Source of the DNA: a virus
DNA: 25,803 nucleotides
Direction: 5' to 3' (one strand)
IMG/VR virus record: IMGVR_UViG_3300021962_000578
Coordinates: 1-25,803 of that record
Position numbers and translations under genes: made by a program. The notes beneath the pieces were generated by a model, which was given only the letters and a program-made list of their open reading frames with translations, was not told the DNA's origin and did not search any database. Below, piece by piece: positions 3,485-23,430 of this stretch; the stretch's first letter is position 1; each line of letters starts with the position of its first letter.

Positions 3485-3865
3485 ATGAAAAAATATATAT
3501 TATCTGAAGAATTTAAACGCATGCAAAAAATAGCAGGTATTATTAATGAAAATAAATCTGCTGCTCCTTTTCCTCCTGAAAAATGGACAAGTCTTGGAAA
3601 AGATTTTGAATTTGAAGAAGATGAAACTACATATACTGATGGTACATCAGAACCAGAGTATCGATACACATACTATGGAATTAACTTTTATCCTACAGAA
3701 GATAAAACATTAGAGTCCGAAATTCAATATGATGACTACACAGATGAAGAGTGGAAAATAGTAGATAAAAAATTAGATGAATTGATGGCTATACTAGATA
3801 ATAATGGTTATGAGTATAGGGCTATGGAATATAGTAGGGGAATAGATTTTACAATTTCTTATTAA
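3485..3865 (+). CDS. Small acidic protein with capsid-targeting-like leader
   Basis: A 126-residue acidic protein of unknown function. Its N-terminus is a short basic amphipathic helix (LSEEFKRMQKIAGIINENK, about residues 6-24) ending in I-N-E at residues 20-22 before N23. T4 internal head proteins carry similar leaders, and the gp21 protease cuts after (L/I)-x-E, so I infer this protein may be packed in the head and processed to about 104 residues. The remainder is rich in D, E and Y, with a YRYTYYGINFYP segment and no catalytic motif that I recognise. It stands alone between two copies of the TAATATTTAT motif, so it may be a monocistronic unit. The leader is recurrent in this window; the mature domain is not recognised. 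Confidence 0.6.
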   Translation: MKKYILSEEFKRMQKIAGIINENKSAAPFPPEKWTSLGKDFEFEEDETTYTDGTSEPEYRYTYYGINFYPTEDKTLESEIQYDDYTDEEWKIVDKKLDELMAILDNNGYEYRAMEYSRGIDFTISY

Positions 3866-3879
3866 TATGCATTAAGTTG

Positions 3880-3889
3880 TAATATTTAT
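3880..3889 (+). promoter_or_regulatory. TAATATTTAT motif (candidate late promoter), copy 2
   Basis: TAATATTTAT, flanked by TG and G exactly as in copy 1, lies in the 38-bp gap before the P-loop kinase gene (ATG 3904). This is the one copy whose TAA is not the stop codon of the preceding gene, which argues that the motif is selected for itself and not for the stop codon. Confidence 0.5.
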
Positions 3890-3903
3890 GACAAACCCTA
3901 TCT

Positions 3904-4665
3904 ATGATTGGACTGATATCTTTATTAAAGGAAATTCAAGGTAAGCCAAAAGCAATCTTTATGGCCGGTCCTGCTGGATCAGGGAAATCATATATCTCTT
4001 CTAAATTAGTACCCTCAGATTTTACTACAATAAATGTAGATGATACCTATGAAGCCTTGTTAAAGGCTTCTGGTATTGGTATGAAGCTAGCCCAAATGTC
4101 ACCTGACGAACTAAAAAAATCAGGTGAATTAATGGGTCAAGCAAGAAAAACTACTACTAAAAAATATGAGGATGCTATTAAAGATGCTAAAAACATTTTA
4201 ATTGATAGTGTAGGAGGTTCTTCTAAAACACTCCTTAAGAAAAAACAACAATTAGAAGATTTAGGTTATGATACTATGATGATAATGACATACGTTTCGC
4301 CTATTACCTCACTAGAGCGTAATAAACAGCGAGACAGAACATTGTTGCCGAGTATTGTGATTCGTTCTTGGCGCGACGTAAATAAAAATATAGATACATA
4401 CAGACAAGCTTTTGGTCAAAATTTAATATTACTAAATCTAGATCCAGATAGTGCTAATAAAAAGTTCGATGAAGAATATATTTTTAAAACATTTATTGAA
4501 CCTTTAGGACAAATAGGTAAAGAAAAAACCCCTGAAGAAAAAGCAAAATCTGAAGAAGAAAAACAACAAATTTATTCTGATATCAAAAAAGCAATTGATA
4601 ACCAACCAGAATTTGATACATTAGAACACGCACAACAAAAAATTACTAACTTTATAAACAAATGA
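3904..4665 (+). CDS. P-loop kinase-like protein (zeta-toxin/AAA_33 type) with short leader
   Basis: A 253-residue protein with a clear Walker A motif, GPAGSGKS at residues 22-29, in the arrangement of small P-loop kinases. A strand ending in INVDD (about 45-49) and a later ILIDSVGG segment (about 99-106) fit the substrate-binding and Walker B regions of zeta-toxin-like or polynucleotide-kinase-like enzymes. An arginine-bearing segment, ERNKQRDR, fits a lid. The substrate cannot be predicted. The first ten residues, MIGLISLLKE, form a hydrophobic leader ending in L-K-E, similar to the other leader-bearing proteins here, so the enzyme may be delivered from the capsid (inference). The C-terminal 50 residues are charged and probably helical. 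The stop overlaps the next ATG by 4 bp. Confidence 0.68.
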   Translation: MIGLISLLKEIQGKPKAIFMAGPAGSGKSYISSKLVPSDFTTINVDDTYEALLKASGIGMKLAQMSPDELKKSGELMGQARKTTTKKYEDAIKDAKNILIDSVGGSSKTLLKKKQQLEDLGYDTMMIMTYVSPITSLERNKQRDRTLLPSIVIRSWRDVNKNIDTYRQAFGQNLILLNLDPDSANKKFDEEYIFKTFIEPLGQIGKEKTPEEKAKSEEEKQQIYSDIKKAIDNQPEFDTLEHAQQKITNFINK

Positions 4666-5027
4666 AAAAATTATTAGATTTACTTAACGAAGTAGAAGAA
4701 AAACAAATCGAAAAACCAATTAAAGAAGAAGGTTCTTCTGTAGTAGATGAAATTGGTAAATTCTTTGTAGTTAAAAAACCTGGGAAGGGTATGACTAAAG
4801 AAGATATGGTATATGAAGCTACTATCTTTGACGAAATCAAAATGAAAGAAACTAAAGGTGCTTATAAAAACAGATCTGAAGCTAATCGTCATGCTACTGA
4901 GGCTTTAAAAGAATACGAAATGCAGCTTAAAGAAATGGAAGATGCTATGAACGAATTCCGTGAAGCTAAAAAATCTATTGAAGATAAGAAAAAAGCTGCT
5001 AAAGAAAAAATCAAAGCTTTACAATAA
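4662..5027 (+). CDS. Coiled-coil protein with leader, possible internal head protein
   Basis: A 121-residue protein, highly charged. It starts with MKKLLDLLNEVEE, whose L-N-E at residues 8-10 is a candidate prohead-protease site. The middle (about 27-60) is a small mixed region, and roughly residues 68-121 are a continuous Lys/Glu-rich helix, almost certainly coiled coil (KEYEMQLKEMEDAMNEF and onward). Such composition is typical of T4 internal or scaffold proteins, but no specific homologue is recognised. It overlaps the kinase gene by 4 bp and abuts the giant multidomain gene with no spacer, so the three are probably translated together. Confidence 0.6.
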   Translation: MKKLLDLLNEVEEKQIEKPIKEEGSSVVDEIGKFFVVKKPGKGMTKEDMVYEATIFDEIKMKETKGAYKNRSEANRHATEALKEYEMQLKEMEDAMNEFREAKKSIEDKKKAAKEKIKALQ

Positions 5028-8000
5028 ATGAATAAACTAACTAAATTCCTTATTAAGGAACTGTTAGATGAACCTCAAACAGTGGCCATTTATGGTGGTG
5101 GGTTTAAACCCCCTACTAAAGGTCATTTTAATGTAGCTGAAAAAGTATTAGCTAATTTTCCTGAAATAGATGAATTAAAAATATTTGTAGGTAGTGGTGT
5201 TAGGGATGGTATTACTCAAGACGAATCTATTAAAGTTTGGAATATCTACAAAAATTACCTTTCAGATAAAGTAGATGTAGAACCATCTATTGCCCCTGTT
5301 AAATCAGTTTTAGGATACGCTAAAGAAAATCCTGATACAAAAGTATATTGGATATTAGGAGCTAGAGAGGGTGATGAAGAAGATTTAAAAGATATTGTTA
5401 GTAGAACTAGAAGTATTGATAAATATCCTAATTTAGAGGTTAAAGTTATTTCTACAAAAGGTGGTGTTAGTGGTACTAAAACTAGAAAAGCAATAGCCGA
5501 CAATAATAAAGAACAATTTTTTTATATGATTCCTGATGTTAAAGAAAAGGAAGAAATATGGGATATTGTTTCTAACCTTCAAGAATCAGTTACTCCAGAT
5601 GAATTAAAACAAGCAGATGCTTTTGCTGATAAACAATTAGCTCCTATTGATATTGACTTAACATCAGATCATGTCTTAAAAAGACTAACAGGCAGAGATT
5701 CAGATGTTACTTTAGCTCAATTAATAGGATTTTTTAAACGTTTAGGTAAACGTAAAAAAGAGTTTATGGATTTCTTTTCTAAGTTTAAAGAAATTGTAGC
5801 TACAGATGATAGAACAAATTTAAATATTCCTTTTATTAATTTAGCAAACAAAGCAATTGCTAAAACAATTATGCGAAAGGATGATTTTGAAACATCAAAT
5901 CCAAAGTTAGTATTTGAAGTAGGCGAAGCAAATCTTAAACCATATGATTGGGAAGAAACTGATAGATATGACAGAACTTTAGAAGTTAGATTTACAACAG
6001 ATTCAGAAACAGATTATATAGTTGAACTTACTGCTTTTTCTTGGAGAAACATACCAGCAATTGATATAGAATTTTCTGCTAGACTTAAAAATGATGGTGG
6101 TTTTTCTTCTAAAAGAATGACTAATAAAGGTGAATTATTTAAAGTAATGGCTACCATTACTGATATTGTAAAACACTATACTGATGAAGCAGGAGTTAAA
6201 GTTTTAATTTATTCTCCTCATAAAAAATCATCAGATGACATTTCAAACCAAAGAGGTAAACTTTATAGAACATTTATCCAAAAACAATTTCCTGGTGTCA
6301 AATTTAAAGTTATTGCTGGTGAAACAGATATTGCTATTTTACCTGGTTGGGAAAAGACAATTGATTTTGAACCTACAGATGATTTAATTAATGAAGGTCG
6401 TTATGATTCTTTAACTAGAAATGTTGTTAGAGATATTATGGACGATTGGAAATCTCAATTTGATGGTTCAAATGGTAAATTAGAGTTTAATGAAGATTAC
6501 GAGAGTGGAGTTATTGATTTTGAACTTTATGCTGTACTAACTGTTAAAGAAACTAAGTATGGATTATATAAAGTTGATGGTGGGGCTGACCCATTAAGAA
6601 AACCAGCTTATTTAGAAATTAAATTCCAAGTTGACCCAAGAGATTTACCTCAAAAATGGGAAGACATTTATATGGATTTAACGGATGTTGTTAGACACGA
6701 GTTAGAACATATGACTCAACAAGGTACTAACGTTATTGCCTCTAAAGAAATGGCTGATGATGAAATACTTAGAAAATTAATTAAACTAAAATTCTTACCA
6801 AAATCAGATTACTATAAATTAGAACAAGAGGTAGATGCTATGCTTCAGGGTATGTACTTGAAAGCTAAAAAATCTAAAACACCTTTTATAGAGGTAATTA
6901 ATGATTATTTTGATAAAGCAAGAGTGAGTAAAAAAGATAGACAAGATATTTTAGATCTATGGAGACAAAGAGCAAAAGCTTTATCTTTACCTTTAAATGA
7001 GGCTGACCCTAAAAAAGGAACAGGTAAAAAACCAAAAGGATCTGGTCGTAGATTATACACAGATGAAAATCCTAAAGATACAGTAGGTATTTCTTTTAAA
7101 ACAAAAGAAGATATTGTTGATACTTTAAATAAAGCATCTTTTAAATCAAAATCACATGCTCGTCAATCTCAAATTATTAATTTAATTCATCAACGAGTTA
7201 GAGCTGCCTATGGTAAAGCAAAAGATCCTGAGGTAAAAGCAAGATTAAAACGTGGTTTAGATTATATTGAATCACGTAAAGAAGCATCTAAAAAGAAAAC
7301 AGAACGTTTACGCAAAATGAAAGAAGCCTCAGACCCACAAGCTGGAACAGCTTTACCTTTAAAAGAAAACTACTCTGAACTTGAACAGTATAGGAAGTTA
7401 ATACTTAAACAACTTATAGATTCAAAAATAGGCAAACAGATAAGAAATGCAGTTGAAGATAAAGTTGGAAAAGAAGCTGTAGAAGGAGTTTATATAATAG
7501 GATCTGTGTTAGATTCAAAAAAATTTCATGAAGAAAGCGATATAGACATAGCGGTGCTTATAAATGTTCCTAATATGGATAAGGGGACTAATGAAGAAAT
7601 GAGCTATGAACTCTCCCAAACATATTCAATTCCAGATGGAGGTTTTGTTGATGTATCTATATGGAATAGATCCAAACCTTTAGGGAAAATGGTAAAACTT
7701 AAAGAAGCCTCAGACCCACAAGCTGGAACCGCTTTACCTTATGGTTCAGGATTTGCTCCTGTAAAAGAATTAGTAACAGCTACACAAGTCATTTGTGATA
7801 ATTGTGGTTGGGAATGGGATAAAAAAGATGGTGGTAAAGACTTATATATTTGTCATAAGTGTGGACATGATAATACCCCTAGTAAAGATTTATTTGGTTT
7901 AAATGAATTAGCAAGAACTTTTGTAAAAGAAGTTTTTGAAGAAAGTTGGAATCCCAAAGAAGCATTCTTATCTTTATGTGTATTTATGAAAGACAATGGA

Positions 8001-8321
8001 ATGAACATACTCCCATTGCCTAAAATTAAGGTTATATCGGACGATAAAGAAAACGCGTCTCGTCTTTTGGGTAAGACAGCTTATTACAATCCAGCTGACA
8101 AGTCAATTACTCTTTACACCTTTGGAAGGCACCCAAAAGACGTTCTACGTTCTTTTGCCCATGAGATGGTTCACCATGAACAAAACTTAAATGATACATT
8201 AGGAAATATTAGCACAACTAATACAAATGAAGATGGTCATTTAGAAAAGTTAGAAAAAGAAGCATATTTAAAAGGTAACATTATGTTACGTAACTGGGAA
8301 GATAGTATAAAAAATGTATAA
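5028..8321 (+). CDS. Multidomain (possibly self-separating) protein: nucleotidyltransferases, HExxH domains, zinc ribbon
   Basis: A 1097-residue mosaic. Residues 1-15: leader ending L-D-E. About 17-185: cytidylyltransferase/NMNAT-like fold with GGGFKPPTKGH (T/HxGH motif, 23-33) and VSGTKTR (147-153). About 190-450: two regions not recognised. L-I-N-E at 453-456, then a metallopeptidase-like domain with HELEH at 557-561. L-N-E at 656-658, then a basic module (about 659-765) resembling what I remember as DUF5872. M-K-E at 764-766 and L-K-E at 778-780, then a Pol-beta-type nucleotidyltransferase (GS at 825-826, SDID 837-840, D875). L-K-E at 891-893, then a zinc ribbon (C923, C926, C942, C945). 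L-N-E at 958-960, then a second HExxH domain (HEMVHH, 1045-1050). Domain junctions coincide with L/I/M-x-E sites, so I infer cleavage by the prohead protease into separate products. Domain calls are firm for the first nucleotidyltransferase and moderate for the rest. Confidence 0.75.
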   Translation: MNKLTKFLIKELLDEPQTVAIYGGGFKPPTKGHFNVAEKVLANFPEIDELKIFVGSGVRDGITQDESIKVWNIYKNYLSDKVDVEPSIAPVKSVLGYAKENPDTKVYWILGAREGDEEDLKDIVSRTRSIDKYPNLEVKVISTKGGVSGTKTRKAIADNNKEQFFYMIPDVKEKEEIWDIVSNLQESVTPDELKQADAFADKQLAPIDIDLTSDHVLKRLTGRDSDVTLAQLIGFFKRLGKRKKEFMDFFSKFKEIVATDDRTNLNIPFINLANKAIAKTIMRKDDFETSNPKLVFEVGEANLKPYDWEETDRYDRTLEVRFTTDSETDYIVELTAFSWRNIPAIDIEFSARLKNDGGFSSKRMTNKGELFKVMATITDIVKHYTDEAGVKVLIYSPHKKSSDDISNQRGKLYRTFIQKQFPGVKFKVIAGETDIAILPGWEKTIDFEPTDDLINEGRYDSLTRNVVRDIMDDWKSQFDGSNGKLEFNEDYESGVIDFELYAVLTVKETKYGLYKVDGGADPLRKPAYLEIKFQVDPRDLPQKWEDIYMDLTDVVRHELEHMTQQGTNVIASKEMADDEILRKLIKLKFLPKSDYYKLEQEVDAMLQGMYLKAKKSKTPFIEVINDYFDKARVSKKDRQDILDLWRQRAKALSLPLNEADPKKGTGKKPKGSGRRLYTDENPKDTVGISFKTKEDIVDTLNKASFKSKSHARQSQIINLIHQRVRAAYGKAKDPEVKARLKRGLDYIESRKEASKKKTERLRKMKEASDPQAGTALPLKENYSELEQYRKLILKQLIDSKIGKQIRNAVEDKVGKEAVEGVYIIGSVLDSKKFHEESDIDIAVLINVPNMDKGTNEEMSYELSQTYSIPDGGFVDVSIWNRSKPLGKMVKLKEASDPQAGTALPYGSGFAPVKELVTATQVICDNCGWEWDKKDGGKDLYICHKCGHDNTPSKDLFGLNELARTFVKEVFEESWNPKEAFLSLCVFMKDNGMNILPLPKIKVISDDKENASRLLGKTAYYNPADKSITLYTFGRHPKDVLRSFAHEMVHHEQNLNDTLGNISTTNTNEDGHLEKLEKEAYLKGNIMLRNWEDSIKNV
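7320..7359 (+). repeat. 40-bp direct repeat, copy 1, coding KEASDPQAGTALP linker
   Basis: This 40-bp stretch inside the multidomain gene matches 7701-7740 at 39 of 40 positions; the only difference is a synonymous A/C in an Ala-preceding Thr codon. The copies are 381 bp (127 codons) apart and in frame. They flank the Pol-beta-like nucleotidyltransferase domain and encode a Pro/Gly/Ala linker that follows a candidate protease site. Confidence 0.9.
7701..7740 (+). repeat. 40-bp direct repeat, copy 2
   Basis: Second copy of the 7320-7359 repeat. It lies between the nucleotidyltransferase and the zinc ribbon/HExxH part of the same protein. Nucleotide-level identity far above that of the flanks implies recent duplication, gene conversion or recombination-mediated cassette insertion. 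Confidence 0.9.
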
Positions 8322-8859
8322 ATTAAAATTAACAGATGTATACAAGCAGCTTAAAGAGGATGAAAACCAAGCTGAAGAACAAAGATACAGAATCTATTGT
8401 GATATGGATGGCGTACTTTGTGACTTTGATAAGCGTTTTACTTCTCTAAACCCAGAACACCTTTCTCCAACTCAATATGATGCCAAGTATGGTTCAGAAA
8501 AGTTTTGGGATTTAATTGACAATCAAGTAGGTGTTAAGTTTTGGGTAGGTATTCCTTGGATGAAGGATGGTAAAGAATTATGGGATTATATTTCAAAATA
8601 TAAACCAACACTTTTATCGGCTCCTTCGCGACAAAACGAATCACGTTTAGGAAAACGTTTATGGGTTAAAAATAATATCCCTGGAACTAAATTGATTCTT
8701 TCATCAGCTTCTAAAAAACAAAATTATTCCGGCAGAGATAAAATACTTATCGATGATCGCCCAGATAATATCGAACAATGGAGATCAAAAGGTGGTATAG
8801 GTATTTTACATACAAGTGCCGCTGACACGATTAAACAATTACAAAATATAGGACTATAA
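8314..8859 (+). CDS. 5'(3')-deoxyribonucleotidase-like HAD phosphatase with leader
   Basis: A 181-residue HAD-superfamily protein. Motif I is YCDMDGVLCDFD (nucleophile D30, acid/base D32), motif II may be S102 in LLSAP, and motif IV is LIDDRPDN (D147, D148). The size, the WVGIPWM segment and the ILIDDRPDNI ending fit 5'(3')-deoxyribonucleotidases, which remove phosphate from dNMPs. In phages these could recycle host nucleotides or adjust pools. The N-terminus adds about 25 residues before the HAD core: KLTDVYKQLKEDENQ, with L-K-E at 13-15, another candidate head-targeting leader. The ATG overlaps the end of the multidomain gene by 8 bp, so co-translation is likely. The enzyme family call is strong; substrate preference and encapsidation are inferred. 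Confidence 0.8.
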   Translation: MYKLKLTDVYKQLKEDENQAEEQRYRIYCDMDGVLCDFDKRFTSLNPEHLSPTQYDAKYGSEKFWDLIDNQVGVKFWVGIPWMKDGKELWDYISKYKPTLLSAPSRQNESRLGKRLWVKNNIPGTKLILSSASKKQNYSGRDKILIDDRPDNIEQWRSKGGIGILHTSAADTIKQLQNIGL

Positions 8860-9296
8860 TGGCATCACCAATAACATACAAAAGATTAGTTTTATCTGGA
8901 GATAAAGCAAAAGAAACAGCCGATGAGGTTAAATCCAAAATGTCTAAAGAATGGAAAAAAGATTTTCCTGATGGTAAATTAGATATTAAAGCTGGTGTAG
9001 AAGGCAAAATGGTGATCGATGTAAAAACCAAAGATTCATCAGCCGCTTCATTAGCTTCTAAAATTAAAGATGTAGCTTCTAGAAATAAAGTAGATGTAGT
9101 TACTAAAGATAAACCTACTTTAAAAGCTGTTAAAGAAAACGAAGATGATATTATGAAACGAATTAAATCGTCTTTATCATTTCAAGTTTCAGGAGGCAAA
9201 AAAGGTAAGCCAATGTCTTCAGGACAAGATTTACCAGCAAATACAAAAATAACTAAGTCTGAATTAAAAGAACTTATTAAAAAGTTTAATAAATAA
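8859..9296 (+). CDS. Lys-rich protein of unknown function
   Basis: A 145-residue protein, Lys- and Ser-rich. An N-terminal globular part (about 1-90, alternating strands and helices, VLSGDKAKETADEVKSKM and onward) is followed by a linker with VKENEDD and a C-terminal KITKSELKELIKKFNK. That last segment resembles the basic helix used as a leader in neighbouring proteins (compare KKELKEIIK), but here sits at the extreme C-terminus. It shares one base with the HAD gene stop (TAATG) and the next gene follows with no gap. No catalytic motif is visible. A nucleic-acid or capsid-interior role would fit the charge, but this is only a guess. Confidence 0.55.
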   Translation: MASPITYKRLVLSGDKAKETADEVKSKMSKEWKKDFPDGKLDIKAGVEGKMVIDVKTKDSSAASLASKIKDVASRNKVDVVTKDKPTLKAVKENEDDIMKRIKSSLSFQVSGGKKGKPMSSGQDLPANTKITKSELKELIKKFNK

Positions 9297-10481: not shown

Positions 10482-10724
10482 ATGGAAAAGTATTTACAAA
10501 ATAAAAGATTGTTTAATAGTCCTATAACTATTACTAAGGATACTATTGTAAATCAAACTCCTCCCCCTCCAACTCCTAAAAAAGTAACACCTACTCCAAA
10601 ACCAGAACCAAAAATTGAAGAAATAATTCCTGAACCTATTCAAGAAGAAATAATTGATGAGGTTCAAGAAGAAATAATTAAACCAAAACGTACTCGTAAG
10701 AAAAAAACCGATGAAGGATATTAA
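10482..10724 (+). CDS. Small Pro/Glu-rich basic-tailed protein
   Basis: About 80 residues from the ATG at 10482; an in-frame ATG at 10467 would add five residues and overlap the upstream gene. The N-terminus MEKYLQNKRLFNSPI is followed by a proline-rich stretch (TPPPPTPKKVTPTPKPEPK), then Glu/Ile repeats (IEEIIPEPIQEEII, VQEEIIKPK) and a basic end RTRKKK. It is evidently disordered. A 17-bp exact repeat (10639-10655 and 10663-10679) underlies the QEEII repeats and suggests slippage. It might be a flexible linker or spacer protein, but function is unknown. Its end overlaps the start of the 798-residue gene by 14 bp. Confidence 0.5.
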   Translation: MEKYLQNKRLFNSPITITKDTIVNQTPPPPTPKKVTPTPKPEPKIEEIIPEPIQEEIIDEVQEEIIKPKRTRKKKTDEGY

Positions 10725-13107
10725 AAAAATACAAGAATTCTTTTCTAAACCTTTAAACGAAGGTAAACAATTAGATATTACAGACTTTCAAAAAGTAGTT
10801 CAGGCCGTAAAATCAACAGGTCATCCTGCTACTGTAATGTTAGTTCCAAAATGGAACGAAATTGAAATCATTACAGGTATGAATGCTCCTGATGACATGA
10901 TTTATGATATTAGTAAAGCAACTTCTCCTCTAGGTTATAACCATAAAGAACTTTCTATGTCTGGTGATTCTTCAAGCTTAGGCAGAGGTGAGTATAGTGA
11001 GATTGAAAAAGTGAACGGTGGTCATATGGACTATCGCCGATTTGAAGAATCAGTAAAAGAAATGGAATACGGAGATCCAGTAGATGCTGTATTTAGAAAA
11101 TACGCTGGAAAAACTATCGAAATGGATTTTGAAGATATGGAGTCTGATTGGGCTAATCTTTTAAATGATTTAGAAGATTATTTCCCTGGAGATAAATTAT
11201 CTGACTTTATGGATAGTGGAGAGGCTGATCTTTATTTAGATGATTATAACATTACTCTTATGGAACCAATTATGGACAAAGATGTTGATTTGGATGTCTT
11301 AAAAAGAGCTAAAGCTAAAATGGATATTGATAAAATGAGATACGATGCTGGAATGCCTCCTATGGACTCAATTGCTAGCTTAAATGAAGATGAAGATATT
11401 GACTTTGAATATAGAGCTGTATTAGATAAATTCAAAGATATAATGAAGGGATTAGACGTTAAAGAAGCTGATGCCTTACAACAAAAATTAAAAGCCTATT
11501 TTGCTGGCTTAGACGAAAACATGAAAAAATCATTCACAGACTATACAAACCAAGAATTAGCTGCTTACGTTAAAAACACTAAAGATAAAAAAGCAGCTAA
11601 AGAATTACATAAACGCTCTCAAAAACTTAAAAATTTATCTCGTACTGATGTAAACGAGCGAGCGGATCATGTAAACCCAATGGTAGCTAAAGCATATAAA
11701 GATTATATTAAAGCCAAAAAAGACTCAGCTGCTGATATAGACTTTGCCGAAGACCCAGAAAAAGCATATCGCTACTACTCTAAAAAATTAAACAATACTT
11801 ACTCTACCAAAGCAGATAGAGATGCTATCGAAGCTATCTTAAAGAAAAAATACGGTAGTGCTTTAGAAGAATCCCTAAAAGAAATGGATATCAACGACCC
11901 AGTCGCTATGAAATTTAGAGCAGCTCAAGATAAGTTAGCCAAAATGAGAGCAGCTAATGCTGGTGATGATGGTAACGATAAATTCTTTGATGCAGCTAAA
12001 TTACGTGCTTTAAAATCTAAACGTGCTCAAATTATGCGTGATATGGAACAAGAAGCAGAACCAGAAGGTGGTCCAATTGCTAACCGTTACGGTGATATGC
12101 TTAATGCTGTTGATGCAGAAATTGCTAAAGAAAAAGCTATGATGGGTTTAGAAGAAAATAAACCTGCATTTAATGTTAACAACCACATCAAAGCTATCCA
12201 AATCCAATTACAACAATTGGGTGTTAAATATGAAATGTCAGGCAACCCATATAAACCATTTAAAGTAATTTACAAACCAGTAAACAAAGACGATAATTGG
12301 TATAAAAACTTTGATGATATTATATTCAGATATAATCTTGGAAGTGTTGTAAAAACAACAATGGATGAAGCTACAAAAGACGAAGAAACTACATTCCATA
12401 AAAAATTAGATAAATTAGTTCATGATACCTTTGGTAAAAGAAAAGGTGAACTAGAAGAAGCAGCTGACCAAAAACAAGCCGATATCTATGCTTATCAATT
12501 TATGCAATATTTTGATAAAATGAGAAGGATAGTTGGAAGTAACTTTGGAGATGATACTAGAAAAGAATTTGAAAAACTAGTACAAAATAAGTTTTCTAAC
12601 CATACAGTAAATGAAACAGAAGAATTAACCGAAGCATATGTTCCTTCAAACATTAAAGAATTTGCTAAAAGAAGAGGTGTATCTTCTTTAGTAAACAAAG
12701 TAGCAGGTTGGGCTGAAAAAGTAGGCGCTCGCATTACTGGCGGAACAGCAATTGGTAAAAATTATAACACTTTAATCCTCGATTTAGGTTACCAAACAGC
12801 CGATATTCGTATTGATATTGAAGACGAAACAATCGAATTATACGACGAACCAGTTTACAGCTTTGCTGATTTCAAAAATGTGTTTATTGAAGAAGTAACC
12901 CGTCAACAAATGGAACACGATGAAGAACAATTACGTCGTGAGCGTGGTTTAGAAGAAAAAATTGCTGAAGCATTAGATAAAATTAACGAAGAACTTTGCC
13001 CTGCTGGTAAAGCATATATTAAGAAAAGACAAGCAGCTGGCGAAAAATCATCTGCTTATCTTTCAGGTCGTGCTGTAAAGGTATGTAAAGGACAAATGAA
13101 AGGATGA
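10711..13107 (+). CDS. Large modular protein with multiple L-x-E sites, putative internal head polyprotein
   Basis: A 798-residue acidic, helix-rich protein. It begins with MKDIKKIQEFFSKPLNEGK, a leader with candidate cleavage after E17. Further L/I-x-E sites fall at module edges: LNE 224-226, LEE 480-482 before N, LEE 581-583 before A, LTE 639-641 before A, and INE 758-760. Between them are five or so separate regions: a first alpha/beta region (about 20-115), an acidic helical module (about 115-215), a coiled region (about 230-480), a small mixed module (about 485-550), and about 643-730 with an RITGG...NTLILDLGY strand pattern. The last is a compact basic module CPAGKAYIKKR...SSAYLSGRAVKVC (763-792). 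The segments ESVKEMEYGDPVDAVF (113-128) and ESLKEMDINDPVAMKF (387-402) are related. No enzyme motif is recognised. I infer a cleaved internal/scaffold-type polyprotein. Confidence 0.6.
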   Translation: MKDIKKIQEFFSKPLNEGKQLDITDFQKVVQAVKSTGHPATVMLVPKWNEIEIITGMNAPDDMIYDISKATSPLGYNHKELSMSGDSSSLGRGEYSEIEKVNGGHMDYRRFEESVKEMEYGDPVDAVFRKYAGKTIEMDFEDMESDWANLLNDLEDYFPGDKLSDFMDSGEADLYLDDYNITLMEPIMDKDVDLDVLKRAKAKMDIDKMRYDAGMPPMDSIASLNEDEDIDFEYRAVLDKFKDIMKGLDVKEADALQQKLKAYFAGLDENMKKSFTDYTNQELAAYVKNTKDKKAAKELHKRSQKLKNLSRTDVNERADHVNPMVAKAYKDYIKAKKDSAADIDFAEDPEKAYRYYSKKLNNTYSTKADRDAIEAILKKKYGSALEESLKEMDINDPVAMKFRAAQDKLAKMRAANAGDDGNDKFFDAAKLRALKSKRAQIMRDMEQEAEPEGGPIANRYGDMLNAVDAEIAKEKAMMGLEENKPAFNVNNHIKAIQIQLQQLGVKYEMSGNPYKPFKVIYKPVNKDDNWYKNFDDIIFRYNLGSVVKTTMDEATKDEETTFHKKLDKLVHDTFGKRKGELEEAADQKQADIYAYQFMQYFDKMRRIVGSNFGDDTRKEFEKLVQNKFSNHTVNETEELTEAYVPSNIKEFAKRRGVSSLVNKVAGWAEKVGARITGGTAIGKNYNTLILDLGYQTADIRIDIEDETIELYDEPVYSFADFKNVFIEEVTRQQMEHDEEQLRRERGLEEKIAEALDKINEELCPAGKAYIKKRQAAGEKSSAYLSGRAVKVCKGQMKG

Positions 13108-13400
13108 TAACACGAGAGCGTCTACAAGAAATTATCAATGAGTCATTACGCGACTGGTTCAAAAAAGAGGACTGGGTGCGTATTGATACTCAAGGTAACA
13201 TTACTGGTCCTTGTGGAACAATGAAAAAAGGACAAGCTACTACTCGTTGCTTACCTCGTAAAAAAGCTCAATCATTATCTAAAGCCGAAAGAGCTAAAAC
13301 ATCACGTAAAAAAGTTGCTGGCTCTAAAAAAGGAAAACAGTTTGTAAAAAACACAGAAAAAGCAGAATACAAAAAAGGCACATATCAAAAGAAAAAATAA
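13104..13400 (+). CDS. Small highly basic protein with leader
   Basis: A 98-residue, strongly basic protein. The leader MITRERLQEIINESLRDW has I-N-E at residues 11-13 before S14, a candidate prohead-protease site. The mature part contains WVRIDTQGNI, then a Cys-bearing motif GPCGTMKKGQATTRCLP, and a Lys/Ala-rich tail with KKAQSLSKAERAKTSRKK. The same type of short basic cysteine-containing module is, from memory, widespread in marine phages and some giant viruses. Charge and size suggest DNA binding or condensation inside the capsid (inference). The ATG overlaps the TGA of the preceding gene by 4 bp, so the two are translationally coupled. Confidence 0.62.
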   Translation: MITRERLQEIINESLRDWFKKEDWVRIDTQGNITGPCGTMKKGQATTRCLPRKKAQSLSKAERAKTSRKKVAGSKKGKQFVKNTEKAEYKKGTYQKKK

Positions 13401-15851: not shown

Positions 15852-16743
15852 CGAACGCGAACTTACTAAAGCCGAACTCAATAAAAGAGAAGAAATTATT
15901 AAAGACCTTAAAAAACAAAAAAAGTCTTTAGTAAAACGATATGGTAAGGACGCAGAAAAGGTTATGTATGGTCGCGCAACAAATATAGCTAAAAAACAAG
16001 CCGAATCAATGAACAAAGAAAAATTAAAAGAACTCGTTAGAAAATCTTTAATGAACGAAACAGAAGAATTTTCAGAAGAAGATATCCAAGATGTTATGAC
16101 AACTTTCAACATCTCTAGAGAAGAGGCTATTGACCACTTACGTCAACAAGAAGCTGATTACAGACGATTTGATATGGATGAAGCTAAAGGTAAAGACTTA
16201 GATGGTGATGGCGATGTTGATTCAGATGATTACTTAGCTGCTCGCGATGCTGCTATTAAAAAAGCTAAAGCAAAAAAAGAAATGAAAGAAGATATGGACT
16301 TAGGTCACGAAGACAACGAACCACACATGCTTAAAGCAGACCTTTATCGTATTGGAAAATACGCTATGGAATTATACCAAATGGTAGATGAGTTTGAAGG
16401 TAAAGGTGAGGTTGATTTTCCTCATTGGTGGCAAGCTAAAATTATTAATGCTAAAGAAGCTTTAGTTGGCGCTAAACATTATCTTGATTTTGAGATGAAA
16501 GAACCTCAAATCGATGCTATGGTAGATGTTGCTGCTGAAGAAGATGTAATCGATGAGGGCTTACCTAAAGGCTTTTGGGCTAAAAAGATTCCTGGTGGTT
16601 TAGACGAATCATACGAAACTTTAGTTAAAAAAATAACAGGACAAGGTAAGTCAGAAAAAGCAGCTAAAGCAATTGCTGGAGCTGTTGCTTCATACAAAGC
16701 AAAAGGCGGTGGAAAAGGTCCAACTGCTAAACAACGTAAATAA
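15844..16743 (+). CDS. Modular protein with EF-hand-like Ca2+ loop and internal leader
   Basis: A 299-residue protein. Residues 1-54 are a basic helical module (ELTKAELNKREEIIKDLKKQ, MYGRATNIAKKQAE). A complete leader-like helix follows at 56-72, MNKEKLKELVRKSLMNE. Then come an acidic region and MDE-A (111-114), and an EF-hand/dockerin-like loop DLDGDGDVDSDD at 118-129 with D118, D120, D122, G123, V125 and D126 at the canonical positions. Residues about 158-230 are a helical module with DFPHWWQAKIINAKEAL, then IDE-G (236-239) and a Lys/Ala-rich basic tail with GQGKSEKAAKAIAGA. Candidate I/L-x-E cleavage sites separate these modules. Ca2+ binding would couple processing or stability to ion conditions (inference). 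The start overlaps the preceding gene by 8 bp. Confidence 0.6.
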   Translation: MINERELTKAELNKREEIIKDLKKQKKSLVKRYGKDAEKVMYGRATNIAKKQAESMNKEKLKELVRKSLMNETEEFSEEDIQDVMTTFNISREEAIDHLRQQEADYRRFDMDEAKGKDLDGDGDVDSDDYLAARDAAIKKAKAKKEMKEDMDLGHEDNEPHMLKADLYRIGKYAMELYQMVDEFEGKGEVDFPHWWQAKIINAKEALVGAKHYLDFEMKEPQIDAMVDVAAEEDVIDEGLPKGFWAKKIPGGLDESYETLVKKITGQGKSEKAAKAIAGAVASYKAKGGGKGPTAKQRK

Positions 16744-17228
16744 TGACTCAAGACGAATTAAAAGAAAAAATCAAAATAATTGTCAGAAAGATAAGAAAAC
16801 CAGAACACTTATCTGCTGACGATACTGTTTCTTTAGATGCTCCTAAGTTCCCTGTTTTAGAAAAATTTCCAACATTAAAAGAAGTTATTGTTAATTTATT
16901 AACAGACCAATACGAATTATTTATAACAGATATCCAGTGGGTGGCTCCAAAACCAACCACTTTTCGTGTTATACTTGGGAATGGTGAAACTTTTATGTTA
17001 ACTTATTCCCCACGAAGTTGGATTGCTCAAATTGAAGGTAAAAAATATTACTTATTAAATTTGAGTGAAGAAGAATCAGCCACAGAAGCTATCGCTCGTA
17101 TTTTATCTTACGGAATGCAAGAAGAAGCAGGAGCAGAAGCTGAAGGAGGCGAAACAACAGCCGCTGAAACACCTGCTGCTGGAGAAGAACCAGCAGCTGC
17201 TGGAGAAGATATAACCGCTGAAGCATAA
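16743..17228 (+). CDS. Conserved-looking phage protein with Ala/Glu-rich tail
   Basis: A 161-residue protein. The N-terminus MTQDELKEKIKIIVRKI is a basic helix like the other leaders but has no good L/I-x-E site right after it. The folded core (about 35-118) has LEKFPTLKEVIVNLLTDQYE, FITDIQWVAPKPTTFRVIL and KKYYLLNLSEEE, which looks like one compact alpha/beta domain. The last 35 residues are a low-complexity Ala/Gly/Glu/Thr tail. From memory, the WVAPKPTTF core recurs in uncultured marine phages, probably as a virion-associated protein, but no function is known to me. It is tightly coupled to its neighbours (1-base overlaps at both ends). Confidence 0.58.
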   Translation: MTQDELKEKIKIIVRKIRKPEHLSADDTVSLDAPKFPVLEKFPTLKEVIVNLLTDQYELFITDIQWVAPKPTTFRVILGNGETFMLTYSPRSWIAQIEGKKYYLLNLSEEESATEAIARILSYGMQEEAGAEAEGGETTAAETPAAGEEPAAAGEDITAEA

Positions 17229-18190
17229 TGGAATTATCTAGAGAACATATAATTCATACTTTAGGAATCTCAGTTCCCTTAAATGAATCTGTCCAACTTA
17301 GCAGGTCTATGGAATTAAAAATTCTTCATGAACAAATGCTTTATGAAACATTTTTAGACACTGTAAAAAATTACGCCCAAGATAAATTAGATAAAGTAGT
17401 TTCTAAGATTAATGATTGGAAAGATTTTGCCGCTCATATTGGTCAAGTACTTTCTAATCCTGATTTTTTAAAAGATCTTTTAACTCCATTATATGGTAGA
17501 GTTTTAAGATTACTTAAACCCTTAAATGATTTTCTTAAAAAATTACAACTTGATAGTTTTATCCCTAAAATAAAAGATTTTTTAGAAAAAATTAAATCTC
17601 AAGGAGGGTGGAAAGCATTTATGGGATTTGTAGCTTTAGGAAGTATTATTACTTATATTACTAATAAACTAAAAAATTTAGCCCCAGACGCTATTAAAGA
17701 TTTTCTTACTAAACAATTTTCTGGAGATTTTGTAACCACTATTTTTAGTAAATTAACAGACTGGAAATCATATTTAGGATATTTACAACCTGTTGTAAAA
17801 GGTGCAGAAGTTATTTTTGACTTTTTACAACCTTTTTTACAAGCGGCTGTATTATCTAAAAAACAAGGTGGATATTTAAACTTAATGAGAGAAAACAAAA
17901 TGAAAAAATCAGACTTAAAAAAATTAATTAGAGAACGAATTTTAGAAGAAGCTGAAGTCGCTCCTACACTTCAAGGTCAGATAAAAACCGAATTATTTAA
18001 AAAATTAGGAGTAGCAGATTTTGATCCTGCTAAATTTTCTACAACAATTAATTTAGTAAAACAAAATAAATCATTAAATACAGCCGCTAATAAAGTATTA
18101 GCAGATGTTATGATTGCTATGATTAAAACAAGTGATGATAACTTGTTAAATCAAATATTTTCTAACTTAAAACAAATCGAAGCCAAATAA
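17228..18190 (+). CDS. Helical protein with hydrophobic segment and internal leader, possible two-protein fusion
   Basis: A 320-residue protein. The leader ends SVPLNES with candidate cleavage after E20. Residues about 30-125 are amphipathic helices, followed by a hydrophobic stretch at about 128-145 (WKAFMGFVALGSIITYI) that could insert in a membrane, then more helices to about 215. An entirely new leader then begins at M225: MKKSDLKKLIRERILEEAE, nearly the same as the start of the 22951 gene. It is followed by an 80-residue helical module (QIKTELFKKLGVADFDPAKF and onward). The ATG at 17900 could start the second half independently, or the two may be separated by cleavage near LEE-A. I infer fusion of two leader-bearing genes. 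No homologue is recognised. Confidence 0.58.
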   Translation: MELSREHIIHTLGISVPLNESVQLSRSMELKILHEQMLYETFLDTVKNYAQDKLDKVVSKINDWKDFAAHIGQVLSNPDFLKDLLTPLYGRVLRLLKPLNDFLKKLQLDSFIPKIKDFLEKIKSQGGWKAFMGFVALGSIITYITNKLKNLAPDAIKDFLTKQFSGDFVTTIFSKLTDWKSYLGYLQPVVKGAEVIFDFLQPFLQAAVLSKKQGGYLNLMRENKMKKSDLKKLIRERILEEAEVAPTLQGQIKTELFKKLGVADFDPAKFSTTINLVKQNKSLNTAANKVLADVMIAMIKTSDDNLLNQIFSNLKQIEAK

Positions 18191-19183
18191 ATGGACGCAC
18201 TAGATCTATTTTTTAAAAAAGTTTCTTATAAATTTCCTAAAGGCTATCCTGATATGAATAGTCCTGAGGACGTTTTATTATTAAAAAGATTAGTAGAAGA
18301 ATACACTAAAGAAGATGTTTCTTTAATTAAAGAAAGTTCTGAGGTATATGATGCTACTATTAAAAAAGCATTAGGTGTTGAAGAAATACCTAGATCAACA
18401 AACAAATATGATTTCCCAGGCAAAGGAGGATCTACTTTTTCTATTCAAGTAAGAGAAGGTGATAAAGATGTTTGGGACAAATTATATAATGTAGCTCCAC
18501 CTAAAAAAGGTGAAGAAGAAGGTGAAACTAAAGGTGTAGGTAATGGTGAAATTGCCTTATATTGGCTTTACAATTACTCAGATAGTGGAGTAAATGTTGA
18601 AGAAGGTAGAGAAGGAGATGATCCTGATTTGTTCTTTAATGGAGTCGGTGTTGAGGTTAAAGCATATACTTCTCACACTGGTAAAATTGGTTTAGGAAGA
18701 TTTGGAGCAGATAAAGAAAATTTAGCTTTATTAAGTGTAATTTTTGGTATTAATGCTTTAAGTAAAGCCTTAGGTGGTGGTGATGTAGCTAGAACAGTTA
18801 ACCCAACAAACTTTAAAGGTGAAGATTTAATACCTGCCTTTGATCAAGTATTAGAGTTAGAAAAAATAGATGATTTAGCAGGTTTAGCAACTAAATATCC
18901 TATTTTTAAAACATTAAAAGATAATATTGATACTATCAATTCAGCCCTAGAAAATCCAGACACTTCAAAAGATGCTGCTATGGCTATGACTTATAAAATG
19001 TTAGAAGCCAAATTAGGCAGAAAACCAGGTGATGGAGGATATTTAGCTAATGTATTAAAAAATGGAGATGTTAAATTCTTTGGCATTAGTTTAGACAAAC
19101 TTAGAACCTCAGATAGCTTATTAGATAATTTTTCAGCAAAACAAAGTGCTATTTATCTTAATTTTGCTAAAATCTTTGGATAA
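18191..19183 (+). CDS. Possible PD-(D/E)XK nuclease-fold protein
   Basis: A 330-residue protein. The central region has the spacing of a restriction-endonuclease-like active site: GVGNGEIALYWLYN (E120), DDPDLFF (D146) and GVGVEVKAYT (E155-x-K157). In this fold an Asp and an E-x-K on two adjacent strands bind metal, preceded by an acidic residue on a helix. The following segment HTGKIGLGRFG is well defined but not recognised. The N-terminal 60 residues are charged helices with LIKES (I-K-E at 46-48 before S) as a possible processing site, and the C-terminal half (175-330) is helical. It directly abuts the preceding gene, and its stop codon starts a TAATATTTAT motif. The nuclease call is from motif spacing only; it may be a structural protein. 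Confidence 0.5.
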   Translation: MDALDLFFKKVSYKFPKGYPDMNSPEDVLLLKRLVEEYTKEDVSLIKESSEVYDATIKKALGVEEIPRSTNKYDFPGKGGSTFSIQVREGDKDVWDKLYNVAPPKKGEEEGETKGVGNGEIALYWLYNYSDSGVNVEEGREGDDPDLFFNGVGVEVKAYTSHTGKIGLGRFGADKENLALLSVIFGINALSKALGGGDVARTVNPTNFKGEDLIPAFDQVLELEKIDDLAGLATKYPIFKTLKDNIDTINSALENPDTSKDAAMAMTYKMLEAKLGRKPGDGGYLANVLKNGDVKFFGISLDKLRTSDSLLDNFSAKQSAIYLNFAKIFG

Positions 19184-19194: not shown

Positions 19195-20022
19195 ATGGAC
19201 TTAAAAAAGTTAATTAAAGAAGCTTTAGATAACAGAAATTGTTGCCAAGCTACAAAACCAAAAAAGTCGTTTATATTAAATGAAAGTGTTGCTCCACGTG
19301 AGATATTGTCTGAGGGTCTTAAATACCATATAGACAATAATAAGCCGCTTACTGAGCATTTATACCGCGCTGGATCCGATAAATACTTTCACTTATGGGC
19401 TGAAGCTCGTTCATTTTATTCTCGTAATATTATTGAAGTAACCAACTCAGATGATTTAGCTATTTTAACCGAAACAAATTTAGGTGAATTTGGTACATTA
19501 GAAGATGGTACTCGTGTTCCTTTAGATTTTATTATGGAAGATGTTTACCTTGATTTAAATGAAATGGCTTTAGATTCACCTAATGTTGAAAAAACTCTTG
19601 AAAAATTAGAAAAACATTGGGAAGAATTAGGTTTTGGTAGTTATGAAATTGCTAAACAATATATTAAAGATCATGGCGTAGAAGAGTTTGAAAGAATAAA
19701 AGATGAATTAAACGCTTTAACCGAAGCCAAAACAGGCAAAAAGAAAGACCCACCTGTAGGAAAACCAATGCGTGATTCATCAGGCGGTAAAGCTTACAAA
19801 GTATATGTTCGCGACCCTAAAACCAAGAAAATCAAAACAGTACGTTTCGGTTCAGGTGGTTTAAAGGCAAAAATTAATAATTCAAAAGCTCGTCAAGCAT
19901 TTGCTAAACGTCATAAGTGCTCAACTAGGAATGACAAAACAAAGGCATCATATTGGAGCTGTAGATTACCACGTTATGCAAAATTACTCGGACTCAAATC
20001 AAACTTCTCAGGATTCTGGTAA
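19195..20022 (+). CDS. Leader-bearing protein with C-terminal basic RHKC/YWSC module
   Basis: A 275-residue protein. The leader MDLKKLIKEALDN offers I-K-E before A10; L-N-E (28-30, before S) and L-S-E (38-40, before G) follow closely. The first folded region (about 41-165) includes LKYHIDNNKPLTEHLYRAGS, then ILTETNLGEFGTLEDGTRVPLDF. LTE-A (about 176-179) leads into a basic C-terminal module: VGKPMRD, YKVYVRDPKTKKIKTVRFG, ARQAFAKRHKC and YWSCRLPRYAKLLGL. From memory, both parts recur in marine T4-like phages, sometimes fused and sometimes alone, which supports a modular build. The C/H/C residues of RHKC and YWSC could hold a metal (inference). The last 47 bases overlap the next gene in another frame. 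Confidence 0.65.
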   Translation: MDLKKLIKEALDNRNCCQATKPKKSFILNESVAPREILSEGLKYHIDNNKPLTEHLYRAGSDKYFHLWAEARSFYSRNIIEVTNSDDLAILTETNLGEFGTLEDGTRVPLDFIMEDVYLDLNEMALDSPNVEKTLEKLEKHWEELGFGSYEIAKQYIKDHGVEEFERIKDELNALTEAKTGKKKDPPVGKPMRDSSGGKAYKVYVRDPKTKKIKTVRFGSGGLKAKINNSKARQAFAKRHKCSTRNDKTKASYWSCRLPRYAKLLGLKSNFSGFW

Positions 20023-20366: not shown

Positions 20367-20379
20367 AATGTGTTAAAAT

Positions 20380-21747: not shown

Positions 21748-21777
21748 TTTGGAAAATTTAAAAAAAGGTATTATATT
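21745..21777 (+). promoter_or_regulatory. Bipartite promoter-like sequence, third copy
   Basis: TAATTTGG (21745-21752, starting at the stop codon of the oxidoreductase gene), then exactly 16 nt, then TATTATATT (21769-21777). The boxes are identical to the site at 1723-1755. The next ATG is 6 nt after the second box, so a leaderless or near-leaderless transcript is expected for the 21784 gene and probably the two genes after it. Confidence 0.62.
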
Positions 21778-21783
21778 ACAATT

Positions 21784-22032: not shown

Positions 22033-22034
22033 TT

Positions 22035-22436
22035 ATGGAAAAACCTATTGTAATTAATGCAAAAGAATGCCCTGAATGTAATGTTCCTAAAGGTTGGGGA
22101 CATGAAATTATATTTGAAAACAATGAACTTTACTGCGGTAAGTTGTTAGTGTTCAAAAAAGGTTGTAACTTCAGTATGCATTACCATTTAATTAAAGATG
22201 AAACATGGTATGTAGATGAAGGAGAGTTTTTATATCGTTGGATTGATACTGAAAATGGAGAAGTAAATGAGGTTGAACTTAAAGAAGGTGATAGTGTTAG
22301 ACAATATCCTGGACAACCACATCAACTTTTAGCATTGACTGATGGAGTTGTATTTGAAGTATCGACACAACATTTTGATGAAGACAGTTATAGAATTTAT
22401 AAAAAATGGCTAAAATCGGATTCTGCGGAACAATGA
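22035..22436 (+). CDS. Cupin-domain protein, mannose-6-phosphate isomerase type II-like
   Basis: A 133-residue single cupin. Motif 1 is SMHYHLIKDETWYVDEGE, with metal ligands H49, H51 and E56. Motif 2 is QYPGQPHQLLA, with H96. The N-terminal VPKGWGHEII is the conserved entry segment of the C-terminal cupin domain of GDP-mannose pyrophosphorylase/mannose-6-phosphate isomerase fusions, and EVSTQHFDEDSYR also fits. It may isomerise or bind a sugar phosphate or another small ligand; the substrate cannot be read from the sequence. The paired cysteines ECPEC (11-15) are unusual for this group. It overlaps the kinase gene by 31 bp. Confidence 0.75.
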   Translation: MEKPIVINAKECPECNVPKGWGHEIIFENNELYCGKLLVFKKGCNFSMHYHLIKDETWYVDEGEFLYRWIDTENGEVNEVELKEGDSVRQYPGQPHQLLALTDGVVFEVSTQHFDEDSYRIYKKWLKSDSAEQ

Positions 22437-22939
22437 GTGTAGGCAAAACAACGCTAGTTAATGCGTTAAAAGAATTGCCCGAATTTAAAGATTATCAGTT
22501 TGCTACTGAACGTTCAAAATATTTAAACGATTTAGGTATTCCATTGAATACTGATTCAACTATTAAAGGACAAATTGTATTTTTAGCTGAGCGTGCTAGT
22601 GAATTGATGTGTGAAAATATTATTACAGATCGTACTGTAGTTGATGTTGTTGCTTTTACTAAAGCAGCTAAATCTATTGATTATCGTGAATCTGAAGCCT
22701 TTGTTAATTTAGCTTATCGTTTACTTAGTGAATACGATTACATTTTTTATGTTTCTCCTGAAGGAGTAGACATGGAAGACAATGGGGTTCGTGAAACTGA
22801 TCAAAATTACCGCGAACTGATCGATTTTATTATCAATAATGTACTTAGATCTCAAAGTTGGAAAATTAAAAATTTAACAACATTATCAGGTTCAACTGAT
22901 GAACGTATTGCAAAAATTAAAGAAACACTTTTCGGATAA
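22406..22939 (+). CDS. P-loop NTPase/kinase, NadR-C/AAA_28-like
   Basis: A 177-residue protein with Walker A GTMSVGKTT (8-16) at the N-terminus. A Walker-B/DRT segment is NIITDRTVVDVVAFT (about 71-85), and DYIFYVSPEG (about 111-120) is the usual final strand of this family. It resembles the ribosylnicotinamide-kinase half of NadR and other small nucleoside/nucleotide kinases annotated as AAA_28 in phages. If it is a nicotinamide riboside kinase, the NMNAT-like domain of the 5028 gene would provide the next step of NAD synthesis, but both substrate calls are inferences. The start overlaps the cupin gene by 31 bp; the stop codon begins a late-type motif. Confidence 0.7.
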   Translation: MAKIGFCGTMSVGKTTLVNALKELPEFKDYQFATERSKYLNDLGIPLNTDSTIKGQIVFLAERASELMCENIITDRTVVDVVAFTKAAKSIDYRESEAFVNLAYRLLSEYDYIFYVSPEGVDMEDNGVRETDQNYRELIDFIINNVLRSQSWKIKNLTTLSGSTDERIAKIKETLFG

Positions 22940-22947
22940 TATTTATA
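22937..22947 (+). promoter_or_regulatory. TAATATTTATA motif (candidate late promoter), copy 5
   Basis: Identical to copy 4 over the whole block up to the start codon (TAATATTTATAATC then ATG), although the genes on both sides are unrelated. It begins at the kinase stop codon and marks the return from the metabolic cassette to leader-bearing and structural genes. Confidence 0.55.
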
Positions 22948-22950
22948 ATC

Positions 22951-23430
22951 ATGAAAAAGTCTGATTTAAAAGCAGAAATTAAAGAATATATTGTAGAAAT
23001 CTTGTCTGAAGTTGATGTAGAGGAAGTTACTATAGTTGGTCCTAAAACAGACCCATCAGATATAGCAGACATAGCTAAAACTGAAAAAACAGACCCTAAT
23101 ACTGTTAAGGCAGCTCTTGCTAAAGCTAAACAAACAAATACTTCAGTTACTGTAGCCGAATCAGATAATGAAGATAGAGAACCTACTAAAGCTGAACTTG
23201 AAAAAGAAAAAGTAAAAGGTGCTCCTTCTAAATTCAAAGTTACAAATTCTGAATTTGAAGATTTTAAATCTAGACTTTCTACATTAGTTAAAAAAATTAA
23301 AGGAATGGAAAAGGGAGCTGAAAAAGATAAAAAAATGGCTGCCTTAAAACAATACATTAAAAAACCAGAATTAGTTAAAGCGTTTAAAGAAAGAGACGTT
23401 AAAATTGATACTGGTGGATTAATCGGTTAA
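22951..23430 (+). CDS. Leader-bearing Lys/Glu-rich protein, putative internal head protein
   Basis: A 159-residue charged protein. MKKSDLKAEIKEYIVEILSEVD is the clearest leader in the window: a basic amphipathic helix ending L-S-E at residues 18-20. Its first six residues equal the internal leader of the 17228 gene. After the leader come VTIVGPKTD, a helix-turn-helix-like pair of helices (DPSDIADIAKTEKTDPNTVKAALAKA, about 33-58), an acidic linker and a C-terminal helical module (about 90-150) with FEDFKSRLSTLVKKIKGME. A helix-turn-helix would suggest DNA binding, but this is a weak reading. It is separated from the upstream metabolic genes by a late-type motif and precedes the spanin-like pair by 1 bp. 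Confidence 0.6.
   Translation: MKKSDLKAEIKEYIVEILSEVDVEEVTIVGPKTDPSDIADIAKTEKTDPNTVKAALAKAKQTNTSVTVAESDNEDREPTKAELEKEKVKGAPSKFKVTNSEFEDFKSRLSTLVKKIKGMEKGAEKDKKMAALKQYIKKPELVKAFKERDVKIDTGGLIG

Follow-up and report, generated by a model that had tools for sequence, protein, structure and literature searches.

In phage T4, the internal proteins IPI–III and Alt carry a short N-terminal leader that ends in an L/I-x-E site and is processed by the prohead protease gp21, and the bodies behind this shared leader are unrelated to each other. The cut by gp21 falls after L/I-x-E, and in IPIII the ten N-terminal residues are enough for packaging, with residues 4 and 7 directing targeting and residues 8 and 10 processing (PMC9026906). 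Capsid-targeting leaders on unrelated proteins are known more widely in T-even phages, where ten or more internal proteins have been reported (PMC12373910; PMC3012670), and head proteolysis of multiple substrates is known in SPN3US and phiKZ (PMC10052503). Here we describe a 25.8 kb stretch of viral DNA (the window; IMG/VR virus record IMGVR_UViG_3300021962_000578, 25,803 nucleotides) whose genes probably encode an expanded version of such a system. A first-pass annotation of this DNA had proposed that its head carries an arsenal of enzymes, far more than the few internal proteins of T4, and the numbers agree, with about 12–15 carriers in the window compared with Alt and three IPs in T4.

The locus resembles the T4 system in having short N-terminal leaders, L/I-x-E sites, unrelated bodies, an S77-family protease (in relatives) and a core/head gene neighbourhood. 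However, T4 has one leader class, whereas here there are at least four unrelated classes, with about 12–15 carriers in 20 kb; there are multi-module enzymes with internal leaders and linkers; and one class (D) copies the C-terminal tail of the scaffold protein, a feature not shared by T4 gp22. The T4-like cyanophages S-CREM2, S-SM1, S-SCSM1 and S-SZBM1 have in common with the window an NMNAT/cytidylyltransferase-like cargo, in a gene cluster related through Pelagibacter phage HTVC008M, but use a T4-type leader (MKxFxxFLxE then A), and fewer carriers were found in S-CREM2. The head ejection proteins of phiKZ and SPN3US are similar in being many head-internal proteins with propeptides cut after x-E by a prohead protease, but most SPN3US propeptides are long (111–254 residues), 42 of its head proteins are uncleaved (PMC10052503), and the phage lineage is a different one. 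In the literature examined we found no account of a leader system with several classes on enzymes, of a scaffold tail copied by leaders, or of the match between cyanophage leaders and virion enzymes described below.

Leaders at the N-termini of the window's genes

Twelve open reading frames (ORFs) with leaders had been picked out in the first-pass annotation, and all of them (12/12) start where it placed them, each with its L/I-x-E site. They are given here with the residue number of the site, together with the gene that marks the lineage.

3485–3865, +: putative cargo gene; class D leader MKKYILSEEFKRMQKIAGIINE then N (leader 3485–3550; INE22), which copies the scaffold C-terminal tail
3904–4665, +: zeta-toxin/AAA_33-type P-loop kinase (Pfam Zeta_toxin, 2.4e-10); class C leader MIGLISLLKE then I (3904–3933; LKE10)
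4662–5027, +: small putative cargo gene; class C leader MKKLLDLLNE then V (4662–4691; LNE10); the G002 orthologue has a class A leader
5028–8321, +: multi-module putative cargo ORF, 1097 residues; leader MNKLTKFLIKELLDE then P (5028–5072; LDE15)
8314–8859, +: 5'(3')-deoxyribonucleotidase (NT5C, HAD); leader MYKLKLTDVYKQLKE then D (8314–8358; LKE15)
10711–13107, +: putative cargo ORF, 798 residues; leader MKDIKKIQEFFSKPLNE then G (10711–10761; LNE17), of a type common to G001, G003 and G006
13104–13400, +: small basic Cys-containing module; leader MITRERLQEIINE then S (13104–13142; INE13)
13421–14974, +: putative cargo ORF, 517 residues; class-B-like leader MANFDYRKAIKENKATFFSSLTE then G (13421–13489; LTE23)
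15159–15851, +: putative cargo gene; class B leader MKDNFDLRKYLAEGRLLKE then N (15159–15215; LAE13, also LKE19)
17228–18190, +: putative cargo gene; leader MELSREHIIHTLGISVPLNE then S (17228–17287; LNE20), conserved in G001
19195–20022, +: putative cargo gene; leader MDLKKLIKE then A..FILNE then S (19195–19284; IKE9, also LNE30)
22951–23430, +: putative cargo gene; class A leader MKKSDLKAEIKEYIVEILSE then V (22951–23010; LSE20)
24098–25663, +: terminase large subunit (terL); lineage marker, 58% identity to immuto gp075

The window terL is closest to those of Flavobacterium phage immuto (160 kb; 58% identity) and Microcystis phage Mel-JY01 (Mel; 52%), with 29–34% identity to cyanophages and Rhodothermus phage RM378. 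The gene block is shared with immuto, where a gene annotated as NAD synthetase, genes for a primase and an exonuclease, an ORF for a nucleotidyltransferase, NT5C, large helical ORFs and terL precede the head genes for portal, gp071, S77 prohead protease, scaffold and major capsid protein (MCP). We fetched 11 longer IMG/VR relatives for comparison (named G001, G002 and so on), and in immuto and those relatives whose contigs span the region, homologues of gp17, gp20, gp21, gp22 and gp23 lie in T4-superfamily order. The window ends just after terL, and its portal, protease, scaffold and MCP must therefore be read from these relatives.

The leaders fall into at least four classes, with consensus sequences MKKSELKxxIKEEIxxxLSE (class A), MxNFDLKKYLAEGKLLKE (class B), MIxLxxLLxE (class C) and MKKQILSEEFxRMQKLAGIITE (class D), besides rarer types such as MKDIxKIxEFFSKPLNE. 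Judged by sequence, they are reusable modules, carried on unrelated bodies and swapped between orthologues. Near-identical leaders stand on non-homologous immuto bodies (gp083 and gp230; also gp003, gp076, gp077 and gp092). The class B core NFDLKKYLAE, searched in IMG/VR without a start codon, occurs 89 times on 58 body families, 82 of the 89 lying within 15 residues of the ORF's first Met, and a search for class A with ATG gave 87 occurrences, whose 77 usable bodies form 53 families. Swaps were seen for the VDEIGKFF body, which has a class C leader in the window, G001 and G003 and a class A leader in G002, and for the CPxPTQ body (class C in G001, class B in G002). A further cluster of five small genes, with different-looking bodies and nearly all starting MKVTQLRQLIREEIQSVVKE or a close variant, was observed in G004 (IMGVR 3300042294_004161, 54224–56762).

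The expected concentration of sites in the gene block appeared in a test set beforehand: across eight relatives, [LI]xE[AGSN] occurs within residues 6–34 in 76/197 block genes and 65/661 others (odds ratio 5.8, p=7e-19, the relatives not being independent), while the same motif in residues 61–89 gave 22/197 and 42/661. For immuto alone, the N-terminal figures are 11/19 in the block and 14/170 elsewhere. We also built hidden Markov models (HMMs) of the leader classes without immuto, Mel, G001 and G002, keeping immuto and G002 as held-out tests. These matched 14/190 N-termini of immuto against 3/775 internal windows, and the matches favoured the block in both immuto (10/29, against 4/161 outside; p=1e-6) and G002 (6/30 against 1/152; p=8e-5). 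These counts are conservative, since several listed leaders escape the class HMMs. Comparison of N-termini between non-homologous immuto proteins gave 32 pairs above the similarity cut-off, where shuffles gave 1–3; within G001 alone and the window alone there was no excess, because the leaders there are spread over several classes. The feature is selective, since the leaderless enzymes of the same interval, at 20380 (NAD/FAD fold) and 22406 (P-loop), start directly at their domains. Nor is leader use universal in the clade, as Mel, a terL relative, shows few class A–C leaders.

The scaffold tail, the prohead protease and cyanophage virions

The class D element, (S)EEFxRMQKLAGIITE, is the C-terminal tail of the scaffold protein: in immuto, in Mel and in those relatives that have a scaffold gene, the protein encoded just before MCP ends PI[LV]E[VS]..[VF]xR[WFM][QK]xLAGI or a close variant. 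When IMG/VR was searched for DNA encoding RMQKLAGI at any position, 81 copies were found, of which 66 lie at the very C-terminus of an ORF, 14 at the very N-terminus and one inside. An MCP gene lies within 900 nt downstream of 61/66 C-terminal copies, and 4/66 reach the contig end. The 14 N-terminal copies mostly precede an ITE/LTE/INE-type site, the sole internal one precedes ITE then S, and the 14 bodies are mutually unrelated except for one weak pair. A looser motif was also run on loci collected separately through terL, where 18 copies were C-terminal, 3 N-terminal and none elsewhere. A protein of G008 starts with a class A leader and finishes with the class D element. The simplest explanation of these sequences would be that the scaffold tail binds a prohead partner (shell protein, core or portal) and that the cargo leaders copy the tail. 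The herpesvirus scaffold likewise has a C-terminal tail after a protease site, adjoining the shell protein, and the protease class is related; that tail is not known to be reused as an N-terminal cargo leader. Extending scaffold mimicry to T4 was considered and dropped, as the gp22 tails of T4 and cyanophages differ from the RMQKLAGI tail. Separately, a 286-residue ORF in locus L206 ends RMQKLAGIIK, so that a scaffold tail stands at a C-terminus outside the head gene order and adjoining cargo-type genes; this ORF is possibly a C-terminally tagged cargo.

The gp21 homologue that had been anticipated downstream of the portal gene is present as an S77 prohead protease (PF03420) in 11/11 relatives, and as gp070 in immuto. 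The relatives have conserved xE sites in MCP (NQAKQLVTE then A/S, near residue 60), in the protease itself (QLTE then G) and in the scaffold just before its tail (PI[LV]E then [VS]), which stand where a prohead protease should cut. Eight leader contigs without an S77 protease were examined as potential counterexamples and set aside, there being no full MCP gene match in any of them (one has weak partial matches). Two of the eight have terL and end just after it, and all eight probably stop before the head genes.

The window leaders are unlike the T4 leader, with its aromatic residues at positions 4 and 7, and belong to other classes, whereas the cyanophage leaders do match it. NMNAT/cytidylyltransferase-like proteins have been found by mass spectrometry (MS) in purified virions of S-SM1 (PMC3037559), S-SCSM1, with S-CBWM1 cited (PMC9602691), S-CREM2 (PMC10665884) and S-SZBM1 (PMC9146016). 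We scanned the whole S-CREM2 genome, on both strands and with any start codon, for M-x(1-3)-[FLYW]-x-x-F-[LIM]-x-E and obtained exactly four ORFs: gp154 (cytidylyltransferase), gp14 (APH/ChoK-like kinase), gp13 and gp6 (S-adenosylmethionine (SAM) hydrolase). The published list of virion proteins, 52 of about 219, includes all four (chance 0.003); since the pattern was written after seeing the N-termini, this value is indicative, and the informative part is that there was no undetected match. The S-CREM2 paper proposes encapsulation and makes no mention of leaders (PMC10665884). A Cas9-like nuclease detected in the same virions (S-CREM2 OR473000 gp12; L262:4205-6814) has FASFMAE then A after a short N-terminal extension, a leader motif that suggests a head-packaged Cas9.

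Competing explanations for the leaders

We favour the reading that the leaders are T4-type capsid-targeting propeptides, expanded to a modular cargo system, and on sequence and analogy we give it a probability of roughly 0.8. During head assembly, a leader would bind the scaffold or core, or the partner of the scaffold tail, and so bring its protein into the prohead, with class D acting by copying the scaffold's own C-terminal tail. The S77 prohead protease would then cut after (L/I/V)-x-E, removing the leader and releasing the mature protein in the head. We regard the identity and reuse of the leaders, the copying of the scaffold tail and the protease setting as established at the level of sequence. 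The part of the proposed arsenal that stands is that the leaders behave as capsid-targeting propeptides would; we strongly infer packaging for class D, consider it probable for classes A–C by analogy and from the cyanophage data, and infer cleavage, delivery and host targets in the lineage.

Several points weigh against this reading. The direct scaffold link holds for class D only, while classes A–C rest on position, site motif and analogy. Three of the listed sites have a poor P1' residue (P at 5028, D at 8314 and I at 3904), some leader genes lie outside the block, and one orthologue of the 5028 ORF, in G006, is leaderless. A class-A-like N-terminal helix is found on a conserved gene beside baseplate genes (immuto 81525; G002 165189; G003 64132; G006 53507; G008 23692), which may encode a tail protein and be an exception to the cargo rule. 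The S-CREM2 pattern follows the T4 leader but is partly post hoc, and several S-CREM2 proteins detected by MS have no T4-type leader. Virion proteomics for the immuto lineage was not found in the literature.

Alternatively, the leaders could be core-assembly helices on proteins that help to build or size the head and are then degraded or expelled, like T4 gp67/gp68. There are indeed class B, class D and internal leaders on small genes that lie between protease and scaffold, as well as in gp071 between portal and protease, and T4 IPIII affects head assembly (PMC9026906). However, recognisable enzymes with intact motifs are among the bodies, which vary greatly from one relative to another, and homologous enzymes persist in mature cyanophage virions; we consider this explanation unlikely. 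We think it very improbable that the leaders are generic amphipathic helices, unrelated to the capsid and serving in dimerisation, solubility or targeting to host structures, with L/I-x-E as a by-product of helix composition. A relaxed [LI]xE is indeed common outside the block (199/661), and the baseplate-adjacent gene has such a helix, but class D is identical to the scaffold tail and confined to termini, the strict site is enriched against its internal control, and the S-CREM2 virion detection agrees fully. That these genes simply serve auxiliary functions or nucleotide metabolism in the infected cell, with start-codon artefacts for extensions, is scarcely credible: NT5C, kinase and nucleotidyltransferase are common as phage metabolic genes, but relatives conserve the extensions together with the site, the neighbouring leaderless enzymes start at their domains, and the 29 residues that precede DxDGVL in the 8314 NT5C are absent both from 13 bacterial homologues, with a possible start 5–12 residues before the motif, and from an NT5C copy outside the block (G002_5929), which has no recognisable leader.

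Putative cargo enzymes and polyprotein-like ORFs

The predicted mature parts agree with the first-pass annotation and include a zeta-toxin-type P-loop kinase, NT5C, NMNAT-like and Pol-beta nucleotidyltransferases, two HExxH segments and a basic module. Genes related to the kinase (32%), NT5C (38%) and cytidyltransferase (23%) lie in one cluster in HTVC008M, where the alignment of the kinase homologue gp129 (E 3e-29, 32%) begins only past the window leader, as does that of NT5C. HTVC008M gp130 is 40% identical to the cytidyltransferase of cyanophage S-RIM2, which starts MKKFSAFLTE then A. The 19195 body is common to immuto gp099, HTVC008M gp131 and Methylophilales phage Melnitz. The 5028 ORF has, in order, an NMNAT/cytidylyltransferase-like module, HExxH, a Pol-beta-type nucleotidyltransferase and a second HExxH, and its cyanophage relatives have been detected in virions. 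Further elements of the window are as follows.

7314–7358, +: internal linker cassette MKE then ASDPQAGTALP, candidate processing site
7695–7751, +: internal linker cassette LKE then ASDPQAGTALPYGSG; also at other module junctions in G001, G003 and immuto gp084
9246–9293, +: class-A-like element KITKSELKELIKKFNK at the C-terminus of ORF 8859–9296, possible C-terminal tag
14300–14350, +: internal class A leader MTKKELKEIIKSALMNE after IKENKSNK in the 13421 ORF, candidate polyprotein junction
16009–16059, +: internal class-A-like element MNKEKLKELVRKSLMNE in ORF 15844–16743
16743–17228, +: gene whose N-terminus is class-A-like; a separate ORF in the window but part of a fusion in immuto gp079, where the junction retains the leader-like helix
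17900–17950, +: internal class A leader MKKSDLKKLIRERILEE after LMRENK; same junction in G001 (LIKENK)
18191–19183, +: conserved cargo candidate with an E120...D146...E155-x-K157 pattern; possible PD-(D/E)XK nuclease, motif only

Some ORFs resemble processed polyproteins, which would be cut apart in the head at internal leaders or LKE-type linkers. NT5C is free-standing in the window, G001 and immuto and fused in G005, G006 and G009, and the C-module of gp079 is fused in immuto and free-standing as window 16743. The basic SLRDWF module is separate at window 13104 and fused in G009 with I-A-E then S kept and unrelated preceding residues, [LIV]xE then SLRDWF being kept in G002, G006, G008 and this fused version. 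Internal leaders tend to come after a KENK-type stretch, as in the window (13421 ORF, IKENKSNK-MTKKELKEIIKSALMNE; 17228 ORF, MRENK-MKKSDLKKLI) and in relatives (G001, IKENK-MKKSDLKKLI; L328, LKENK-MENFDLKKYLAE; L353, class B then ENK-MIKLTDLINES), and junctions of the window, G001, G003 and immuto share a recurring cassette, LKE then A[SD]DPQAGxAxPYGSG. A clear site or leader is present at several module junctions and not at all of them, and we therefore treat polyprotein processing as a hypothesis.

Two other window genes were looked at individually. The ORF 18191 family also has a conserved KGYPD motif near the N-terminus, and the ORF is a possible packaged nuclease; a Pfam search of the family gave nothing, and a PDB fold search with an AlphaFold2 model (mean pLDDT 75) gave no match at E<=0.001, so the nuclease idea stays at motif level. 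The NAD synthetase label (phrog_447) of the gene at 1285–1725 is probably mistaken: its product also matches homing endonuclease PHROGs and opens with a GIY-YIG-like sequence (FGFIYxxTHxPSGKxYIGKK).

The kinase, the NMNAT-like nucleotidyltransferase, NT5C, the metalloprotease-like domains and the basic modules would enter the cell with the DNA. Put at its broadest, and here we judge the chances evenly balanced, a widespread group of aquatic T4-superfamily phages may run a modular 'zip-code' cargo system, in which several unrelated leader classes, at least one copying the scaffold tail, load at least 12 enzymes, some as polyproteins cut inside the head, and deliver pre-made nucleotide, NAD and protease-like activities with the genome. 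Such a system would explain the NMNAT-like enzymes, kinase and SAM hydrolase in cyanophage virion proteomes. It would also offer ready-made packaging tags, one of them the scaffold's own tail, and a sequence rule predicting which phage proteins travel in the head, making many 'hypothetical' genes of abundant aquatic phages testable as injected cargo.

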